Positions 1,996 to 10,308 of a DNA stretch of 11,477 nt are shown here, one piece after another. The notes beneath the pieces were generated by a model. It did not search any database. It had not been told where the DNA came from and saw only the letters and a program-made list of their open reading frames with translations. The stretch covers positions 1 to 11,477 of the forward strand of contig JACRMZ010000109.1 in the NCBI GenBank assembly GCA_016219455.1. The letters are read 5' to 3'. Made by a program: the position numbers and the translations under genes. Source of the DNA: Candidatus Aenigmatarchaeota archaeon (GTDB taxonomy: Archaea > Aenigmatarchaeota > Aenigmatarchaeia > PWEA01 > JACRMZ01). Positions within the stretch are counted from its first letter, which is position 1; each line of letters opens with the position of its first letter.

Positions 1996-3345
1996 ATGGG
2001 GTCCAGTGATAATGTAAAGAAGCTTTATGATTACGCCAAAGACAACCTCTACCTCTGCCTTCCCGATATGGACATCGGCGGGGAAAGGTACAACTCATCT
2101 TTGCTTTTTGGATTTCTTACTGCAGCCACCGGAGGCAAGGAAGTCATATTCGGCGAATATGGGATGGGGAAAACGACATCATCCGAAAACATAATCTCTC
2201 TTTTTTACGGCTTGCCAAAGGAGGCCGTGATGGCGTCCACGTTGCAAGGCCAGCCTGAGCAGACGGAGGAGAAAACAGTCGGACGTTTTGACATCGGGAA
2301 GCTCAATGCAGGTGAGGAGGAAACCATATGGACATACTTCACGCTTCTGGAGCCAAAGCTGATAGACGAGGTCAACCGTTTGCCTGCAGGCAAACAAAGC
2401 GTGATTCTTCAGGGAATGGACAGGGGAGTCTGGAAATACGGAAAGTCCAATATATACCAGCAGGAGTTCTCGCTTTTTGGGACATGCAATTACAAAGACA
2501 GCGGCAACACGGATTTGATGGAAGCCGTCCTTGACAGGTTCGATGTCGCAGTCGAGTCAAGGAGCCCTGGCGCCAACATGATGAGAGTCATAAGGCACAT
2601 GAAAGCCGGAAAGTCCCCTGTTGAGAATGCGCAACTGGCGGACAAGCTGCTTTCCGACATAGAAGGCGTTAAAGTCAAGAGCTTCTCTGATTATGCCTCA
2701 GTCAAGGCCAAAGTAGACGAGGCATCCAATGAGTTCAGAAGGCTTTTCGAGGAAGCCGAAGGGATAGCGCTTCCTGACGCAGGTGCGAGGAGGAAAATAA
2801 AGGAGGATATAAACGCTGTGAAGCTTTCGCATGACGCCGACCTTTTCCTCGATTTGGTAATATCAGAGGTCGGTTTCTGCCCAAAGCACGGGCAAAAACG
2901 CGCCAATAACCTATGCAAACCATTCTGTTCGCATTACAAAAACTACGCAGGCTCAAACACAAAGAGGGGATTGTCAGTCAGGACAAACAAGGCGATAGTC
3001 AAGTATTCCAAGGCGCTTGCGTGGTTCATGGGCTCTGAAGAAGTCACGGTAGAGCATGTGGAGACTGTTTTGCCGTATGCGATATGGCATAAGCTTGAGT
3101 TCTACGACGATTACCTTTCTTCATTGAAGCAGGACGAGAAGGACGAACCACTCCAGTTCTATGCGGCCAAGAAGATGGTGAGAAATATGAAAGCCGAATT
3201 TGACGAGATAAAGCCGGCTCAGGCAAAAGTCGTCAGCCTTCTGAGGGAAGGCAAGCATGATGAAGCCAAGAAGTTCATCGAAGGCGATGAGGCGCATGTC
3301 GGCTACGAGCAGCCGGTATTCAAAGAGTATCTCAGGCTTGATTAA
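1996..3345 (+). CDS. MoxR-family AAA+ ATPase
   Basis: A cytoplasmic AAA+ ATPase of 449 residues, expected to act as a chaperone-like remodelling machine with a VWA partner. Walker A is GEYGMGKT at 53-60. Walker B with the MoxR signature is LIDEVNRLP at 122-130, sensor 1 is Asn165 in FGTCNYKDSG, and the arginine-finger region is LDRFD at 179-183. Sensor 2 is around Arg329 in LSVRTNKAIV, followed by the usual lid helices with an EEVTVEHVETVLP segment (348-360). Between the core and sensor 2 is an unusual cysteine/histidine group (C295, H298, C307, C311, H313) that could bind a metal. The C-terminal tail of about 80 residues is charged and helical. It is first in the operon, and the VWA gene lies three genes downstream, the classical MoxR-VWA pairing. 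It lacks the N-terminal tag seen in four neighbours. The substrate is unknown. Confidence 0.9.
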   Translation: MGSSDNVKKLYDYAKDNLYLCLPDMDIGGERYNSSLLFGFLTAATGGKEVIFGEYGMGKTTSSENIISLFYGLPKEAVMASTLQGQPEQTEEKTVGRFDIGKLNAGEEETIWTYFTLLEPKLIDEVNRLPAGKQSVILQGMDRGVWKYGKSNIYQQEFSLFGTCNYKDSGNTDLMEAVLDRFDVAVESRSPGANMMRVIRHMKAGKSPVENAQLADKLLSDIEGVKVKSFSDYASVKAKVDEASNEFRRLFEEAEGIALPDAGARRKIKEDINAVKLSHDADLFLDLVISEVGFCPKHGQKRANNLCKPFCSHYKNYAGSNTKRGLSVRTNKAIVKYSKALAWFMGSEEVTVEHVETVLPYAIWHKLEFYDDYLSSLKQDEKDEPLQFYAAKKMVRNMKAEFDEIKPAQAKVVSLLREGKHDEAKKFIEGDEAHVGYEQPVFKEYLRLD

Positions 3346-3349
3346 CGCC

Positions 3350-3802
3350 ATGCACCAAAAAAAGGGCGGCATGTTCGGCATGTATGATGGCATTAAAGTC
3401 GACTATGAAGAGAGGCACCTCAAGCCCAACGAAGGCGATGGATTTGGAGTTACGGATTTGATAGAAGGTTCACTTTCTACGGATATACCAGCTCGTTACA
3501 CAATTTCCAGGACCTACGATGTCCCCAACGGGACATATAGCGTCAGCGCAAGGGCAAATGTGAAGTCCGGAAGCCCCACGTACAATGGCGCATGGCAGTT
3601 TGAATCTCAGGGATTGCCCCTATACGGTTCTCCGACGATTCCAATAACATGGGAAAACGATGAGAGCGACACTTATGACGTTCAGGTAACAGATGGCAAG
3701 CTCAAATGTGATTTCATATGGGGAAAGAACTCAGGCTATGCAAGGACCGGTTTTGTTGAATATGTGGAGTTCCGGTATATGAGGAAGCTGGAAAAAGTAT
3801 GA
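3350..3802 (+). CDS. tagged small beta-sandwich-like protein 1
   Basis: A 150-residue protein of unknown function, without a signal peptide or membrane segment. It begins with a short basic stretch and the peptide MFGMYDGI (8-15), the tag shared with three other proteins of this operon. An acidic linker follows. From about residue 48 to the end is a compact domain rich in alternating polar and hydrophobic residues, with YDVPNGTY (56-63), VTDGKL (113-118) and a final VEYVEFRY (136-143). This pattern resembles jelly-roll or carbohydrate-binding-module sandwiches, where a GTY strand and a DGKL turn are common; the similarity is my reading, not a search result. The next gene is a paralog. The ATG at 3350 is chosen because it lies 4 bases after the ATPase stop; the frame is open further upstream, but that part overlaps the ATPase gene. 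An internal ATG at 3371 is a less likely alternative. Confidence 0.85.
   Translation: MHQKKGGMFGMYDGIKVDYEERHLKPNEGDGFGVTDLIEGSLSTDIPARYTISRTYDVPNGTYSVSARANVKSGSPTYNGAWQFESQGLPLYGSPTIPITWENDESDTYDVQVTDGKLKCDFIWGKNSGYARTGFVEYVEFRYMRKLEKV
3371..3391 (+). other. N-terminal tag copy 1 (M-F-G-M-Y-D-G)
   Basis: Codons 8-14 of the first sandwich-like protein encode MFGMYDG, followed by Ile. This is the first of four copies of the tag in the operon. It differs from the others in having Met in place of Pro. Confidence 0.8.
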
Positions 3803-4230
3803 AAAAAAATCCTTTTGGCATGTATGACGGCGTTGGTGCTGATAACGACGACGCTCTGCAGATTGAAGCTTCTGTTATCGAGGACACTGAAAAAATAGAA
3901 ATGGATGCAAAAGAAGTGAAGTATCCTGAATATTATGTAAGACGGTCATATGTTGTCCCCAATGGGACATATCTCGTCCGTGGAAGGGCAAATGTCCGTT
4001 CGCACAACACCGACTACAGGGCAAGATGGATGCTTGATGCGCAGGAATCACAGGTTTATGATACGCAACCCATACCGGCTGAATGGTCTGTGGGTGACAG
4101 TGACTGGATAGATGACATTCGTGTTAAAGACGGAAAGCTATCACTTACGCTAACGCTTTCACGGAGCAATAACGAGTTGAGGCGCGCTTACATGGAGTGG
4201 GTGGAGTTCAGCTACAGGAGGCGTGAGTGA
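3799..4230 (+). CDS. tagged small beta-sandwich-like protein 2
   Basis: A 143-residue paralog of the preceding protein. It starts MKKNPFGMYDGV, so the tag lies at residues 5-12, followed by an acidic linker (15-40). The sandwich-like domain spans about 45-141, with YVVPNGTY (51-58), VKDGKL (109-114) and EWVEFSY (133-139) matching the neighbour at the same places. The start overlaps the upstream stop as ATGA (3799-3802), typical of translational coupling. Two short DNA blocks are almost identical to the neighbour (17 of 18 bases at 3955-3972 versus 3521-3538, and AAGGGCAAATGT in both), which suggests a fairly recent tandem duplication or gene conversion. No signal peptide is visible, so it probably acts in the cytoplasm. 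Function is unknown; a ligand- or glycan-binding role is a guess from the fold pattern. Confidence 0.87.
   Translation: MKKNPFGMYDGVGADNDDALQIEASVIEDTEKIEMDAKEVKYPEYYVRRSYVVPNGTYLVRGRANVRSHNTDYRARWMLDAQESQVYDTQPIPAEWSVGDSDWIDDIRVKDGKLSLTLTLSRSNNELRRAYMEWVEFSYRRRE
3811..3831 (+). other. N-terminal tag copy 2 (P-F-G-M-Y-D-G)
   Basis: Codons 5-11 encode PFGMYDG, followed by Val. The codons differ synonymously from the other copies (for example TTT against TTC for Phe). Confidence 0.85.
4216..4221 (+). promoter_or_regulatory. Shine-Dalgarno site that fixes the VWA gene start
   Basis: AGGAGG inside the end of the preceding gene lies 8 bases before the ATG at 4230. This favours that ATG over the in-frame GTG at 4227. 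Confidence 0.6.
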
Positions 4231-5933
4231 TGGACGAGGAATACAGGAAGAAGCTTGAGGAAAAGCTCCCGAAAGTGTGGAAGGAAGTGAGGGAATCATT
4301 CAACTATCCGCAGATACCAAAGCCAGTTTTTGATGAAAAAACGCAGGAAATAGAAATGAAAAACCACAGGATTGTGATAAACCCTGAGTATGTCAAAGAA
4401 CTCGAGGCAAAAGGGCTTGCGCAGGATGATGCGTTAAAGGCGATGCTAAGCCATTATCTGGGGCATTATTTCTACAAGAATGACCCATGGGATTTTACAA
4501 ACATGCTTTTTGTCGAAAATGAAATGTCGCTTGTTGACGAAAAGCGGGCAGCTGAGTTCCGCAACGCCTACAATGACGTTTGTGTCGACCTTAAGCTCCT
4601 GCTAAGGCACAGGAAAAGCGGGGCCGAAAAGCTTCTTTCGAAGACCGGCACGACAAGCATCGACCGTTTGCTGAGAGCATATTACCAGGATCAGTCAGGG
4701 TATGACATGGGCCTCGGTGGGACAAGCGCCCTCGAAGAAAAATATGTGAAAAAAATAAAGACAATAGACTTCTTTGACCGCAGTAGATTGAAGTACAACT
4801 CAAGGAGATTCGGGAAGATACTGAAGGATTATATCGATGAGCTTCCCAAAGACGAGCTTCCCAATGGCAAGGAGTCCGGAGGGAAAGGGGACGAACAAGA
4901 ATCAGGGGATAATGAACAGGACTCTGGGGGCCAGATGCAAGATCCCGAAGGCAAAAAAGACGCAAATTCCATCGGCGATGGAGACGGTAAAGATGGCTAC
5001 TCAGGCTGCTGCGGCACTGGAAAGCATATGGATCATGAGGCCTTTGGCGAAGATGAAGTCAGGGAAGGCATAAGGGAGCTTGCCAAGGGGATGGACCCAG
5101 AAGAATTCAAAAAGGCAGCAAAAAGGCTTGGAATAGGGAAAATTGAAGGAAAGGGAATAGGGATTTCAGGGGAAGGCTCGCCGGAAATCACAAGCAAGGA
5201 TTATTATCAGACGCTCTCCGAAGCCTATAGGATAGGCATTCTTGAAAAGCCCAACATCAAGAGCGACACAATGTATCCGGAAACCCATAAAAAATACGAG
5301 ATGGGCGACCCATTCAATGAAATCGATTTCCTGAATTCCTATGGCAAGATAATACCAGGAGTCACGCAGAAGTGGAAGTATTCTGAAATGGATGTCCACG
5401 GCAAGCTGGATGGCATACCTGATGCGCTTGTAGTTATAGACAGCTCAAGCAGCATGATAAATCCCTCCTCATCGCTTTCCTACGCGGTTCTTGGCGGTTT
5501 TTGCGCCTCCAACGCGTATTTGGACAGCGGGAGCAAAGTAGGCGTCATAAACTTCTCAGGAAACAACCAGATGCTCAGCGTCGACTTTACCGATGACAGG
5601 GACAAGGTATACGAGGCTCTGGCTTCATACTTTGCCGGCGGAACGGTAATGCCGCTTCAGGAGCTGAAGCAAATGGTAAACAAGAATGAAAAGGAATGCG
5701 ACATAATACTGATAAGCGACACTCAGATAGACAACCTCGTTGACACGATAAATTATTTGAAGGGCATAGAGAACAAGAACAGAGTCACTGTCCTTTGCAT
5801 TGGCGATAGTTATGGCGACCTTCAGAAGTATTCCGATGACAAGTTTTCAATATACGCCATCGAAAGCATTGAGAGCTTACCGGATATAATCCTAGGGGAC
5901 ATCAGAGGCCATTTGAATGGGAAAAAAAAGTGA
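4230..5933 (+). CDS. VWA-domain protein with degenerate metallopeptidase-like N-terminus
   Basis: A 567-residue cytoplasmic protein, the likely partner of the MoxR ATPase. The N-terminal part (about 1-200) resembles the putative metallopeptidase domain found ahead of VWA domains in several bacterial and archaeal families. Its zinc-motif position reads HYLGH (75-79), so the catalytic Glu of HExxH is replaced by Tyr, and NAYNDVCVDLKL follows at 112-123. A Gly/Asp/Glu-rich, low-complexity linker runs from about 203 to 260. The C-terminal VWA domain (about 396-560) has an intact metal-ion-dependent adhesion site: DSSSS at 404-408, the Thr of AGGT at 469-472, and ISD at 495-497. The start overlaps the upstream stop (TGATG). 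MoxR-VWA pairs usually remodel or insert metals or cofactors into other proteins. The client here may be the tagged neighbours, which is an inference. Confidence 0.9.
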   Translation: MDEEYRKKLEEKLPKVWKEVRESFNYPQIPKPVFDEKTQEIEMKNHRIVINPEYVKELEAKGLAQDDALKAMLSHYLGHYFYKNDPWDFTNMLFVENEMSLVDEKRAAEFRNAYNDVCVDLKLLLRHRKSGAEKLLSKTGTTSIDRLLRAYYQDQSGYDMGLGGTSALEEKYVKKIKTIDFFDRSRLKYNSRRFGKILKDYIDELPKDELPNGKESGGKGDEQESGDNEQDSGGQMQDPEGKKDANSIGDGDGKDGYSGCCGTGKHMDHEAFGEDEVREGIRELAKGMDPEEFKKAAKRLGIGKIEGKGIGISGEGSPEITSKDYYQTLSEAYRIGILEKPNIKSDTMYPETHKKYEMGDPFNEIDFLNSYGKIIPGVTQKWKYSEMDVHGKLDGIPDALVVIDSSSSMINPSSSLSYAVLGGFCASNAYLDSGSKVGVINFSGNNQMLSVDFTDDRDKVYEALASYFAGGTVMPLQELKQMVNKNEKECDIILISDTQIDNLVDTINYLKGIENKNRVTVLCIGDSYGDLQKYSDDKFSIYAIESIESLPDIILGDIRGHLNGKKK

Positions 5934-6681
5934 CCCTTTCGGGATGTACGACGGCATTGACGTCCCAAAAGGGGATGAAACAGCCATTGTCGACGGAAAC
6001 ATGGCAGATGCTCTTTACATTTTCGGCAGGATAGACATGAATTTCGACAAGATTGACGGCTTGTATACATACAGGTATTATAGCACGGCCCCCGATAACG
6101 CGCTGATGGGCGTTTTTTGCCACCTCCTTGGGGAGGATGGCGCTCGCGAACTCTATGACAACGTAAAGAAAACCTTCTCCAAGGATGGCCTGTATGCAAG
6201 GTCAACTGCAGATTACAGAAGGCCGGAGATATACACCAGTGCATGCGTCGGTTTGCTGGCATTTTCCCTTGGTGAAAGGGAAGAAGCAGAGAGGATTTTC
6301 AACACTTTTTTGAAAACCGATAAAGACGAAATCGACGGTTTGTTTGGCATGGCAATACTTGGAAAAGTTTTAGGAAGAGACGGCGAAGCAAACGAGTTCT
6401 ATGATCGCGCCATGGGATTGTCCACAAACGAGACGCTTTATGCTGCCAAAGGCTCCGGCTATTATGACACCAAGAACAGCGCCCTGAAGCTTGTCTACCA
6501 CAAACTTGCGGGAAAGGAAAGTGACGACAGGGATATTTTCAAAGAAATTGAGGCTAGGATACCGAAGAACAACGGCCTCTTTGTCTGGGGAAGCCACATG
6601 ATGCCTAGCAGTTCTCCAAGCATTGATGACAGCGCGCTTGTTGGCATATACCTTTGCCTGAGAGGCGGAATGGTCCTATGA
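5917..6681 (+). CDS. tagged alpha-hairpin repeat protein 1
   Basis: A 254-residue protein of unknown function with no signal peptide. It begins MGKKSDPFGMYDGI, carrying the operon tag at residues 7-14. The rest is five degenerate repeats of 32 to 50 residues. Each joins a segment like DNALMGVFCHLLG, an A-x-x-[I/L]-[Y/F] helix and a DGLY/GLF turn; the turns fall at 48-50, 91-93, 141-143, 173-175 and 220-222. The third repeat is shortened. This pattern resembles TPR-like or alpha/alpha-toroid proteins; I cannot separate these by eye. It ends SALVGIYLCLRGG, nearly the same ending as the next gene, so the two are paralogs. The start lies inside the last 17 bases of the VWA gene, indicating tight coupling. 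Confidence 0.86.
   Translation: MGKKSDPFGMYDGIDVPKGDETAIVDGNMADALYIFGRIDMNFDKIDGLYTYRYYSTAPDNALMGVFCHLLGEDGARELYDNVKKTFSKDGLYARSTADYRRPEIYTSACVGLLAFSLGEREEAERIFNTFLKTDKDEIDGLFGMAILGKVLGRDGEANEFYDRAMGLSTNETLYAAKGSGYYDTKNSALKLVYHKLAGKESDDRDIFKEIEARIPKNNGLFVWGSHMMPSSSPSIDDSALVGIYLCLRGGMVL
5935..5955 (+). other. N-terminal tag copy 3 (P-F-G-M-Y-D-G)
   Basis: Codons 7-13 encode PFGMYDG, followed by Ile. The GGG and TAC codons for Gly and Tyr differ from those in copy 2 although the peptide is the same. Confidence 0.85.
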
Positions 6682-7571
6682 CAAATCCGTTTGACATGTA
6701 TGACGGAGTCAAGCATGAGGAGGAAAACGGGCTGAAAAAAACCACGGCTACTAGAAAGTTTGATGAGAACGCTCTAAGGAGAGCCGAGGAGCTTTACGAC
6801 AGCATAAAATCCAAGGTCCCCAGGAAAGACGGGCTTTACGGCTACGCGGGCTTGAACGACTACATCTCGGTTTCGGAAAACGCGCCGGTTGCAATATTGG
6901 CAAAGCTGCTTGGGAAAGACGATGATGCAAGGGAGATCTATCTTGGCATAAAGGGACAGATTGGCAAGCAATACAACGGGCTATATAACGAATCCATAAT
7001 GCCGGACATTCCTATGGGTGGTAGAGGGCCGTCTACCAAGGGCAACGCCTTGATGGGAATACTTTCCCTGATGCATGGGGACGTCGAGGAGGCGGAGAAG
7101 ATATACAACCTGGTAAACAAGGACATAGGCAAAAGCGGCGATCTGTACGGCAGCGATTCTTTCAGCAGGGGCTCATGGAGCGACAACACCCACGACAACG
7201 CCCTCATGGGAACATTTGTGAAGATGCTTGGGAAGGATGTGGAGGCAAATAAAATTTTTGACGAAATAGATTCCATGATGAGGATGCCTTTGGGCCTGTA
7301 TGGCCACACAGTTAGGAGCGAGATAATCTACACTGAAGACAACGCTTCTATGGCCATATTCTGTGACGTGCTGGGCAACTACGTCTATTCGGAGGAGATT
7401 TATTCAAAGTTCGAGTCTGTTGCCGGGAAGGACAACGGCCTGTACCTTTCAATGGAAAAAGGGGCGTACATGCTTCCAAGAACAGATGGAGAAAGGAGCC
7501 TTTGCTCGCAGCCAAGTGCCCTTGTAGGCATCTATCTGTGCCTTAGGGCAGGCAAAAAACTTCAGCCGTAA
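6678..7571 (+). CDS. tagged alpha-hairpin repeat protein 2
   Basis: A 297-residue paralog of the preceding protein and last gene of the operon. The tag is PFDMYDGV at residues 4-11, with Asp in place of the usual Gly. Five repeats of about 48-54 residues follow, with [G/D]LY turns at 52-54, 101-103, 155-157, 206-208 and 254-256. Each turn is followed by a variable loop, a segment like NALMGILSLMHG, and a helix such as AEKIYNLVNK. The protein ends SALVGIYLCLRAGKK. The repeats are more regular than in the neighbour. The ATG at 6678 overlaps the upstream stop as ATGA; the frame is open back to a TTG at 6654, but only the ATG places the tag at the very N-terminus as in the other proteins. The 3' end overlaps the convergent gene by 10 bases. 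The repeats may form a solenoid or toroid that binds a partner. Confidence 0.87.
   Translation: MTNPFDMYDGVKHEEENGLKKTTATRKFDENALRRAEELYDSIKSKVPRKDGLYGYAGLNDYISVSENAPVAILAKLLGKDDDAREIYLGIKGQIGKQYNGLYNESIMPDIPMGGRGPSTKGNALMGILSLMHGDVEEAEKIYNLVNKDIGKSGDLYGSDSFSRGSWSDNTHDNALMGTFVKMLGKDVEANKIFDEIDSMMRMPLGLYGHTVRSEIIYTEDNASMAIFCDVLGNYVYSEEIYSKFESVAGKDNGLYLSMEKGAYMLPRTDGERSLCSQPSALVGIYLCLRAGKKLQP
6687..6707 (+). other. N-terminal tag copy 4 (P-F-D-M-Y-D-G)
   Basis: Codons 4-10 encode PFDMYDG, followed by Val. It is the only copy with Asp in the third position. Confidence 0.8.
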
Positions 7572-8150: not shown

Positions 8151-8157
8151 TCACCTT
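8151..8157 (-). promoter_or_regulatory. Shine-Dalgarno site with embedded stop codon
   Basis: On the minus strand AAGGTGA is followed by TTTT and the ATG at 8146. The TGA is also the stop of the upstream gene, so terminating ribosomes sit on the next initiation site. Confidence 0.6.
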
Positions 8158-8516
8158 TTCTTGTAACGCTCGTACTCCTTGTTGTATTCTATCTTGTATT
8201 CCCGGATCTCAGAGAGCGCAAGGCCAAGAGTGCCATAGTCGACATCCTTGGCTTTTTTCCACCCTGGATTTGATTTGTTCCCGTATTTGTCATTGTATTC
8301 GACGAATTTCTTCGCTCCTTCGGCGTATTTGCCAAGCCTCAGCGGGTCCCACACGGACTTTCTTTTGAAATCATAGTGGTCGTCATCCTTTATCGAGTAG
8401 ACAAAATTGTGGGCTTCGTCTGATGTCATCCCAGCCCCGACGAGAATAGCTTCTGCGTCTACAAGGTACTCTTCGCCGTTTTTCTTTGGTTCCTTTTTGT
8501 CATTTTTTGGGTCCAT
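8151..8516 (-). CDS. uncharacterised small protein, paralog of the preceding gene
   Basis: A 121-residue protein of unknown function. The N-terminus is Lys/Asp-rich (1-14). Then come a segment AEAILVGAGMTSDEAHNF (21-38), a middle segment LGKYAEGAKKFVEY (61-74) and a C-terminal segment DVDYGTLGLALSEIREY (91-107). These three blocks align in order with the 112-residue protein encoded just upstream, so the two genes arose by duplication. It is probably helical and soluble, with a basic Tyr/Lys-rich tail. The start at 8516 lies 6 bases after the preceding stop and is preceded by GGAAGTGA. The middle block, with KYxxAAxxF character, recalls a short TPR-like hairpin, but this is weak. Confidence 0.8.
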   Translation of the reverse strand: MDPKNDKKEPKKNGEEYLVDAEAILVGAGMTSDEAHNFVYSIKDDDHYDFKRKSVWDPLRLGKYAEGAKKFVEYNDKYGNKSNPGWKKAKDVDYGTLGLALSEIREYKIEYNKEYERYKKR

Positions 8517-8522
8517 TAAAAA

Positions 8523-8530
8523 TCACTTCC
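8523..8530 (-). promoter_or_regulatory. Shine-Dalgarno site with embedded stop codon
   Basis: GGAAGTGA on the minus strand includes the TGA stop of the upstream gene and lies 6 bases before the ATG at 8516. Confidence 0.45.
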
Positions 8531-8861
8531 TGAATCTCATTGACACAACATACTCGCGTATCTTCTCAAGCGCCGAGCCGAGGACTTCCTTGTTGACATC
8601 ACGGATCTCCTCCCAGTTATAATGGGACCGGGTGTCATGCTTTTCCTCGCGTATGAACAACTGGGCTGCCTTTCCATATTCCTTCCTTTTGAGCATGCTT
8701 CCAATATCCTTTTCAAGAACATCGTCGCTTTTGCCGTTTGTAAGCGTTTTTATGAATTTTGGCGCGTAAGACGAGTCCATGCCGCCTTCCTGAAGAATCT
8801 TCTCCGCCTCTGAAAGAAGATGTTCGTACTTTGTTTCCTTGCTAAAGCTGATTATCCCCAT
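8523..8861 (-). CDS. uncharacterised small protein, first gene of the minus operon
   Basis: A 112-residue protein of unknown function, likely helical and soluble. Blocks AEKILQEGGMDSSYAPKF (19-36), RKEYGKAAQLFI (59-70) and DVNKEVLGSALEKIREY (88-104) match those of the next gene, with the same order and similar spacing. The frame is open from a GTG at 8870, but the ATG at 8861 is preferred because AAGGGTG ends 6 bases before it. A TATA-like box about 26 bases upstream of a leader of some 12 bases supports this being the first gene of a three-gene transcript (8861 to 7562). No catalytic motif or metal site is visible. Confidence 0.8.
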   Translation of the reverse strand: MGIISFSKETKYEHLLSEAEKILQEGGMDSSYAPKFIKTLTNGKSDDVLEKDIGSMLKRKEYGKAAQLFIREEKHDTRSHYNWEEIRDVNKEVLGSALEKIREYVVSMRFRK

Positions 8862-8867
8862 AATCCA

Positions 8868-8874
8868 CACCCTT
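8868..8874 (-). promoter_or_regulatory. Shine-Dalgarno site of the minus operon
   Basis: AAGGGTG on the minus strand, 6 bases before the ATG at 8861. Its last three bases are the alternative GTG start, which has no such site of its own. Confidence 0.45.
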
Positions 8875-8958: not shown

Positions 8959-10308
8959 ATGCGACGCGACAGTGCAAAGCCTGTCATAAAAAAGGGTCCT
9001 CCGGGCCCTAACGGCAGGAAATGGGTCTCTTTGCATCACAAATATGGCGCCACGACAACTCACGCATTCCCGTTCGTCTGGGACATAACCAAACCGGCAG
9101 CAGGCCCGTTCTGCACAGACCCTGACGGCAACGTTTTCATGGATTTCAATTGCAATGTCGCCTCTTCACCGTTCGGATACAATAATCCAGGCGTTATTTC
9201 GGCCATAAAGGAGGCCGGTTTTGTCGATCCGGTGAAGATGGCAGGCCAGGACTTCTATCTTGCCACAGGAAAGGACCCGCACAACTCGCTGGAAATTGTC
9301 GCCAACCTTCAGGAAAGGATAATAAAGATTTCAAAGCCCCTCGGGCTAAAGCGCGTTTTCCTCTCCAATTCCGGCGCAGAGGCGGTAGAGAACGCCATAA
9401 AACTATGCTACGCCCGCGGCGGGAGTTACGCATTCACATTTCTCGGGGGTTTCCATGGGAGGACGCTTGGAGCGCTTTCGCTCAACAGGAGCAAGGCCGT
9501 CCACAGGCGCGGATATCCGGCAATAAGCAAAGTCGTTGAACTCCCGTACTGCAAGTGCAAAACACATTGCGTGTGCGGCTGGCGCATTTACAAGAAAGAG
9601 CTCGGCCGCGAAGTCACCGCATTGGAGGAAATGGTTGACAAAAATGTCGGAAAAATAGACCCAAGGGAAGGGGCGTTCATAATTGTGGAGCCAGTCCAGG
9701 GAGAAGGCGGCTACAACATAGGCAACAAGGAATTTATGTCAGACCTGAATAAGCTCTCCAAGAAGCACAAGATACCAATCATTGCGGACGAGGTCCAGTC
9801 AGGCGTTGGCCGCACAGGAAAGTGGTGGGCATCTGAGCACTTCGACTTTGAGCCGTCGATAATATCAGCGGCAAAAGCGCTCCGCGTGGGTGCGACAATA
9901 GGCAAGGAGGAAATGTTCCCTAAAGAGCAGGGGAGGATTTCATCGACATGGGGCGCCGGCGACATTTACAACTCCATCGTGGCTTGCAAGACGCTTGAGA
10001 TAATTGAAAAACAAAATCTTCTGAAAAACGCGGAGAAAATGGGCTCGTATTATGTCAAGAGGCTCAAGGAGCTAGGGGAGAAGTACCCTGAGAAGGTCGT
10101 TGAAGTCCGTGGTTTAGGGCTGATGGACGCAATCGAGTTCTCCTCAAGGGATGATAGGGAGAAGGTTGAGATAGAATGCTTCAAGAAAGGGCTTATAACG
10201 CTTGGTTGCGGCTACCGCACGCTGCGCTTGCTGCCGCCACTTGATGTGCGCACACGGGAACTGGACATCTCAGTCGAAATACTAGAACAGGTCATGAAGA
10301 AACTTTGA
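8959..10308 (+). CDS. class III PLP-dependent aminotransferase
   Basis: A 449-residue fold-type I aminotransferase of the ornithine/acetylornithine/4-aminobutyrate group; the exact substrate cannot be told. It has NSGAEAVENA (137-146), FHGRTLG (165-171), EPVQGEGG (244-251) and the signature IIADEVQSGVGRTG (274-287), where Asp278 binds the PLP ring nitrogen. The PLP lysine is most likely Lys306 in SAAKALRVG. This part is atypical: most relatives have a glycine-rich GGG stretch where RVG stands here. A cluster CKCKTHCVC (198-206) gives four cysteines at a place where archaeal relatives often have one or two, and could bind metal. argF in the window hints at ornithine or acetylornithine, but it is about 7 kb away. 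It has its own promoter and converges with the next gene across a 37-base gap. Confidence 0.92.
   Translation: MRRDSAKPVIKKGPPGPNGRKWVSLHHKYGATTTHAFPFVWDITKPAAGPFCTDPDGNVFMDFNCNVASSPFGYNNPGVISAIKEAGFVDPVKMAGQDFYLATGKDPHNSLEIVANLQERIIKISKPLGLKRVFLSNSGAEAVENAIKLCYARGGSYAFTFLGGFHGRTLGALSLNRSKAVHRRGYPAISKVVELPYCKCKTHCVCGWRIYKKELGREVTALEEMVDKNVGKIDPREGAFIIVEPVQGEGGYNIGNKEFMSDLNKLSKKHKIPIIADEVQSGVGRTGKWWASEHFDFEPSIISAAKALRVGATIGKEEMFPKEQGRISSTWGAGDIYNSIVACKTLEIIEKQNLLKNAEKMGSYYVKRLKELGEKYPEKVVEVRGLGLMDAIEFSSRDDREKVEIECFKKGLITLGCGYRTLRLLPPLDVRTRELDISVEILEQVMKKL

Follow-up and report, generated by a model that had tools for sequence, protein, structure and literature searches.

A short N-terminal peptide shared by satellite proteins of different folds in an archaeal MoxR-VWA operon: a candidate client tag private to its system

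The pairs NorQ-NorD, CbbQ-CbbO and RavA-ViaA unite a MoxR AAA+ ATPase with an adjoining VWA protein that has a complete metal ion-dependent adhesion site (MIDAS). For NorQ-NorD it has been proposed that acidic residues of the target bind to the MIDAS and that the use of ATP in the MoxR ring rotates the VWA domain (PMC9976466, PMC13036017). A 2020 eLife survey likewise proposes that vWA domains capture a substrate peptide (PMC7159879). The target recognition and the action of MoxR-VWA machines are described as poorly understood, even in the well studied pairs (PMC13036017). A pair of this kind is encoded in the DNA considered here, a stretch of 11,477 nucleotides (hereafter the window) that forms contig C105 (JACRMZ010000109.1) of the draft genome (866 kb, 65% complete) of a Candidatus Aenigmatarchaeota archaeon. 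Four of the six proteins of its operon, termed satellites B, C, E and F, start with one short peptide, [P/M]F[GD]MYDG[IV], which is complete within the first 15 residues of all four. The MoxR ATPase and the VWA protein are without it. Both points had been made by an earlier sequence-only reading and are confirmed. The gene order is MoxR-B-C-VWA-E-F and, from C through F, every start overlaps the gene before. The genes and their tags are the following (window positions, strand, element).

1996..3345, plus strand: MoxR-type AAA+ ATPase, untagged (Pfam; Walker A motif GEYGMGKTT; tree with other MoxR proteins)
3350..3802, plus strand: satellite B, tag and predicted beta-sandwich-like body, homologous to C
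3371..3394, plus strand: tag of B, MFGMYDGI
3799..4230, plus strand: satellite C, tag and predicted beta-sandwich-like body; its start overlaps the stop of B (ATGA)
3811..3834, plus strand: tag of C, PFGMYDGV; residues 1-42 of the C model have a predicted local distance difference test score (pLDDT) <50
4230..5933, plus strand: VWA protein, untagged, with an N-terminal domain that has a degenerate HExxH position and a C-terminal VWA domain (Pfam, alignments)
5917..6681, plus strand: satellite E, tag and predicted alpha/alpha-toroid body; its start overlaps the end of the VWA gene
5935..5958, plus strand: tag of E, PFGMYDGI
6678..7571, plus strand: satellite F, tag and predicted alpha/alpha-toroid body; its start overlaps the stop of E (ATGA)
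6687..6710, plus strand: tag of F, PFDMYDGV; residues 1-23 of the F model have pLDDT <50

The N-termini read MHQKKGGMFGMYDGI in B, MKKNPFGMYDGV in C, MGKKSDPFGMYDGI in E and MTNPFDMYDGV in F. The codons of the tag differ among the satellites at six positions (F, G/D, Y, D, G and I/V), so that the peptide is conserved and not a DNA repeat. Common ancestry of the whole proteins is not the cause either. B and C align along their length (E 2e-25), as do E and F (E 3e-19), and these are two homologous pairs; C and F have only the tag in common. Within the draft genome the pattern TTYGRNATGTAYGAYGG gave four matches, every one in the window operon, and its reversed control gave none. The Pro-Phe form (pattern CCNTTYGRNATGTAYGAYGG), searched in 156 genomes of the phylum, matched this genome only, at three places (B has Met for Pro).

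The bodies that follow the tags are of two kinds according to structure models of C and F (AlphaFold), which were built from two-sequence alignments of the window proteins. The model of C is all-beta, of low confidence (pLDDT 55), and its top Foldseek match is a phage tail fibre (8e-4), with several carbohydrate-binding modules at 3e-3 to 1e-2. The model of F shows alpha hairpins closing an alpha/alpha toroid (pLDDT 71, pTM 0.79); its top match is a glycosidase (E 3.7e-5), followed by further glycosidases and terpene synthases, with TM-scores near 0.5. The two sandwich-like and two alpha-hairpin bodies expected from the sequence thus agree with the models. The tag segment has pLDDT <50 in both and, because so few sequences entered the alignments, this value may equally reflect missing information. 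None of the four satellites matches a Pfam family above the cut-off, and B and E, the two satellites run against NCBIfam and PADLOC, were left unnamed by both. An assignment of E and F as tetratricopeptide repeats was dropped, the Pfam matches being weak (E 0.055).

The same genome has a second MoxR-VWA locus, which is divided between the end of contig C114 and the beginning of C11. Another peptide, LAKEHxD, opens the proteins encoded next to it, those of genes on C73 and those of a distinct cluster on C10. The pattern A-K-[EQ]-H-x-[DG] matched 18 times in the genome (control 0), 17 of them at gene starts; the match on C44 does not lie at a gene start and was rejected. Altogether, 19 proteins with LAKEHxD or the close variants LAKLH, LAKDH and LAKQH were enumerated, namely a leucine-rich repeat group of eight (Pfam assignment tested on one member), a toroid group of five and six short singletons (60-130 residues) that resemble none of the remaining tagged proteins. 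The LAKEH toroids belong to the same body group as E and F of the window, and F aligns with a LAKQH-tagged toroid (E 3e-23) only from residue 33 on, past the tag. One body therefore bears two tags according to the system and one tag stands on several bodies, which indicates that the tag follows the system and not the fold. The sequence-only reading had counted absence of the peptide from homologs as a point against a tag. Taken to the letter, the toroid homologs in the same genome do lack the peptide, yet they bear the tag of the other system in its place, and the tag reading gains from this. In the tree, a long path (2.16) separates the two MoxR proteins, so a recent duplication of the entire locus is not the origin of the second one. 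On C10 the four LAKEH proteins are clustered with untagged genes on both sides, and no MoxR or VWA gene was seen by eye in the 9.0 of 9.5 kb read; tagged proteins can thus be encoded away from the machine. One LAKEH-tagged toroid gene (L021:2122-2887) looks split over two frames and is either broken or an assembly error.

Related systems were collected with VWA profiles. The searches retrieved 6 of 156 genomes of the same phylum at E <= 1e-5 (G042, a generic-looking MoxR/VWA cluster, was left out), 28 of 371 genomes of the phylum of the archaeon isolate DeMMO3_20 at E <= 1e-15 and 22 of 23 genomes of the class of a Syntrophaceae bacterium. The neighbourhoods of 31 VWA places of the DeMMO3_20 phylum and of 9 of the 22 bacterial loci (L124-L132) were taken. 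A contig scan with the window VWA gave no match; a second one, with MoxR, returned 8 loci. A single automatic rule was applied to the archaeal operons and yielded 175 open reading frames (ORFs) of at least 100 amino acids in 34 systems; these were picked by similarity to the window VWA or MoxR and are not a random sample. ORFs overlapping a longer one were dropped before counting, a filter that cost L019 four of its five tagged proteins and L093 the majority of its own; these were recovered by hand and stay outside the statistics.

Two proteins were considered to be without body similarity when blastp gave no hit with E <1 beyond residue 60, and to match when the ungapped score in the first 60 residues was at least 40. 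Such N-terminal matches occurred in 40 of 447 same-system pairs without body similarity versus 25 of 14222 different-system pairs. The next 60 residues, used as control, gave 0/447 and 13/14222, respectively. When the system labels were shuffled 2000 times, the mean was 2.6 and the maximum 9, versus the 40 observed. The automatic rule found a tagged set in 16 of the 34 systems, 76 proteins altogether. In five systems (the window, LAKEH, G226, L116 and L113) the set spans more than one body group; these groups come from blastp linkage, so that distant homology between them is possible, least for sandwich versus toroid or repeats versus toroid. The third tagged protein of L113, presumably a ribosomal protein S24e, was counted as chance. 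Among the sets recovered by hand, L019, a third system of the same phylum, has M[GP]I[ST]DEM on five proteins of four blastp body groups (DNA pattern: four matches, control 0), and L093 has [LIV][AG]RQF on seven proteins, which fall into four, in part weakly linked, groups. Two genomes have two VWA loci each, L100/L102 in G226 and L095/L096 in G288, whose satellites have one common tag; one tag may therefore serve two VWA proteins.

The converse arrangement, one body with several tags, recurs among these systems. One body group is present in L018, L107, L108, L115 and L118 with the tags VELKLPD, HRxVEDIVxQYEGL, LEEPxPE, KGTGIDDLVRDYVPE and RGGGLDDVLRGMKPQ, respectively, of which the last two resemble each other. 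The Pfam family GXGXG matches an L018 member of this group above the cut-off and an L108 member below it. Another body group occurs in L029 and G226 with two tags. Among pairs with homologous bodies, 121 of 148 from the same system score at least 40 at the N-terminus. The conservation of the tag was compared with that of every body window of equal length (14-mer). No body 14-mer reaches the conservation of the tag in L107, L115, L108 and L116, and the tag is among the best-conserved 14-mers in L018 (9 of 208 body windows as good), L122 (5/203), L029 (3/240) and L111 (17/212).

The core proteins of the window were assigned from family and structure comparisons. Its MoxR matches Pfam AAA_lid_2 with 25.2 bits (cut-off 22.7), and AAA_3 and AAA_5 below their cut-offs; the closest solved structure is 2r44 (E 6.5e-11), entered as an uncharacterized protein, which we take to be of the MoxR type. 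The VWA protein matches Pfam VWA_2 with 32.3 bits (cut-off 27). Two sites of the VWA protein are relevant to its function.

5439..5453, plus strand: MIDAS motif DxSxS (DSSSS); further ligands are Thr at 5643-5645 and Asp at 5718-5720
4452..4466, plus strand: HYLGH at the position of the HExxH of relatives, with Tyr for the glutamate (alignment)

The MIDAS (DxSxS-T-D) is complete in 49 of the 49 VWA sequences that reach the site, including that of the window. An HExxH motif lies ahead of the VWA domain in 33 of the 48 sequences with the region, and the window protein is without it. The other forms are HGxxH or HAxxH in L032, L033 and L124-L132, HEYLGH in two sequences and REEGH in one; loss of the glutamate is shared by the window and those bacterial loci that have a satellite of the NPFEEF type. 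In the VWA proteins scanned, Pfam gave no metallopeptidase above the cut-off (best Peptidase_M48, E 0.26), so that a metallopeptidase reading draws on the motif by itself. Seven of the nine loci read in the Syntrophaceae class have a trio of MoxR, a single satellite with NPFEEF or NPFDDF near its start, and VWA. In L126 and L128 the filtered ORF list is empty between MoxR and VWA, and the bacterial satellite is additionally found in L032, L033 and L034. The L033 satellite has matches to FwdC models that stay below the cut-offs. On the L034 contig the N-terminus of the bacterial satellite is joined in frame to another protein, presumably a DNA polymerase III alpha, perhaps through an assembly chimera. 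A common origin of NPFGMY/NPFDMY of the window and the bacterial NPFEEF as one tag was considered and left as a lead; the MoxR tree places the window beside L093 (tag LARQF) with support 96/90.

A copy of the tag in the core proteins was also sought. The mean score of the tags was 25.2 with the core proteins of their own system and 24.5 with those of other systems, and scores of at least 35 were reached in 15 of 76 own and 206 of 1140 other comparisons. By this own versus other-system comparison no tag-like copy in the core proteins rises above background, and homotypic matching of tag and core was rejected (the highest scores were 47 for own cores, in L113, and 53 for those of other systems). 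The L113 match lies in the VWA protein L113:9275-11092, where ERTAFIDLLNL near the N-terminus resembles ERTALDDLLEL just past the tag of its two satellites; its score of 47 is within the background.

Around the operon, the flanks 66-1927 and 8959-10308 look by eye like aspartate and ornithine carbamoyltransferases and an aminotransferase. Two adjoining short genes on the minus strand (8151-8870) appear by eye to be diverged paralogs of each other and match no Pfam family above the cut-off.

Taken together, the peptide is, on balance, probably a private N-terminal docking tag that brings clients of any fold to the MoxR-VWA remodeller of their own system. The sequence-only reading had suggested a docking, sorting, modification or encapsulation tag recognised by the MoxR-VWA machinery. 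Its tie to MoxR-VWA systems is well supported by the comparison of sequences across them, and recognition by the pair itself is inferred; encapsulation has gained no support, and cleavage or modification now stands as a rival. In the docking model, the VWA protein would be the receptor for the tag. An invariant acidic residue of the tag, such as the Asp in PF[GD]MYDG, may complete the coordination of the MIDAS metal as its sixth ligand, in the way that has been proposed for NorD and its target, and ATP turnover in the MoxR ring would then pull on, assemble or release the client. An N-terminal peptide with a conserved acidic residue, common to the clients of one system, fits the peptide-capture role proposed for vWA domains, and an invariant acidic residue is present in 17 of the 18 hand-listed tag sets. 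The client bodies identified up to now (sandwich, toroid, leucine-rich repeats, GXGXG beta-helix) resemble scaffolds of the binding or repeat type. The chances appear evenly balanced for a wider proposal, namely that these loci form a new class of MoxR / HExxH-VWA systems, which would be common among archaea with small genomes and occur in some bacteria, and in which each system has a private peptide code for a growing set of unrelated clients, grafts this address onto new folds and reads it with its own VWA receptor, which would allow two systems per cell without crosstalk.

Several observations weigh against this interpretation. The automatic rule finds no tagged set in 18 of the 34 systems; several of these have a single satellite, and L097, L099, L114 and L120 have many neighbours and no shared tag. 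The pairs of the survey are not independent, and the LAKEH system supplies many of them. Among pairs with homologous bodies from different systems, 37 of 220 also score at least 40 at the N-terminus, mostly between sister systems (L115/L117/L118, L111/L113, L122/L123), with a few where the 60 residues extend into the body. The tag is not clearly above the body windows in L112 (90 of 187 as good), L118 (54/173), G226b (93/184) and G226a (39/185), in the leucine-rich repeat group (24/76) and the toroids (13/78) of LAKEH and in the two window pairs (24/108 and 76/232), and the tag positions in this test were chosen with hand-made patterns, which biases it toward the tag. The similarity of tags follows the identity of the VWA proteins weakly (rho 0.20 at a nominal p of 0.02, from pairs that are not independent) and that of the MoxR proteins not significantly (rho 0.09). 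Acidic residues are frequent, and an invariant one is likely anyway where a set comprises just two or three near-identical tags. The related loci L097 and L099 have similar neighbours without a common tag, two pairs of which score high, and represent another kind of satellite set.

Other explanations start from the same data. The tag could be a leader for cleavage or modification; in many systems the enzyme might be the HExxH domain that is fused to VWA, and MoxR would feed in the client. The frequency of HExxH (33 of the 48 VWA proteins with the region) and the N-terminal position of a tag that is not confidently folded in the C and F models are in line with such processing. It is nonetheless unlikely, given that the window has HYLGH and the bacterial loci except L031 have HGxxH or HAxxH while the N-terminal motifs persist there, and that the VWA proteins scanned show no Pfam metallopeptidase above the cut-off. 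About equally improbable is an assembly tag through which the satellites bind each other or a common scaffold, MoxR-VWA acting elsewhere. One tag on many co-encoded proteins would suit assembly, as would the four LAKEH proteins clustered on C10, where no MoxR or VWA gene was seen by eye. On the other hand, tag-like copies in the core are not above background, so no homotypic partner is found there, and assembly alone does not explain why tags differ between systems.

The tag might also be a by-product of gene birth: a start region encoding an inert N-terminal peptide was copied before new bodies, or governs translation only. Local duplication would be easy, because overlaps of stop and start codons string the satellite genes together, and in several families the tag is no more conserved than the best body stretches. 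Against this, the residues stay while the synonymous codons drift, four families have no body window as conserved as the tag, and the same body carries system-dependent tags, which makes an inert peptide quite improbable. Loading of the satellites into a protein shell by an encapsulation tag draws on the likeness of short terminal tags on unrelated cargo to the targeting peptides of encapsulins and microcompartments. Pfam finds no shell protein in the operon, and PF04454 was not found in the genome, a weak negative at 65% completeness and with a control that matched 3 of 14 known genomes. The encapsulation reading is scarcely credible.

Under the docking reading, nature has already performed part of the experiment: with two systems in one organism, one toroid body with two tags and many natural tag variants, client recognition is testable with short peptides and tag swaps. 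Orthogonal tag-receptor pairs could result as tools, and a handle is provided on proteins of small archaeal genomes that have little or no assignment in the family libraries used. Searches of the open-licence PubMed Central library, outside which most subscription papers and all preprints lie, brought up no account of N-terminal tags that are private to a system and carried by the neighbours of MoxR-VWA.

A short shared peptide that addresses different cargo is familiar from the leaders of ribosomally synthesized and post-translationally modified peptides and from the cargo peptides of encapsulins. Here the cargo consists of proteins of 60-460 residues, and no encapsulin was found in the 65%-complete genome. 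In the extracellular contractile injection systems, payloads with an N-terminal signal peptide are described as loaded by the AAA ATPase Pvc15, and these peptides fall into sequence groups (PMC11495950), which parallels the tags. The ATPase is a different one, and no tail genes were seen in the window (none were searched for in the genome).

The MoxR-vWA ternary conflict systems are also described as combining a MoxR-vWA core with variable proteins that have a common recruiting module (PMC7159879). In their case the effector-associated module is a domain, of which a core protein carries one copy, a homotypic arrangement (PMC7159879), whereas the module here is a short peptide of which no core copy exceeds background. 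No VMAP, iSTAND or FtsH component, no third core component and no enzymatic effector domain is among the Pfam matches of the six operon proteins, and PADLOC, run on four of these six, gave weak matches only (mad8, E 0.005; capP, E 0.009). The MoxR-VWA pairs are described with one target each (PMC9976466, PMC13036017), whereas here a private N-terminal peptide is common to many proteins that are encoded together and differ in fold. Many of the VWA proteins here also differ from those of the pairs in having an HExxH region before the VWA domain. The closest precedents are accordingly the MoxR-VWA pairs, the ternary systems with their recruiting domains and the signal peptides loaded by Pvc15.

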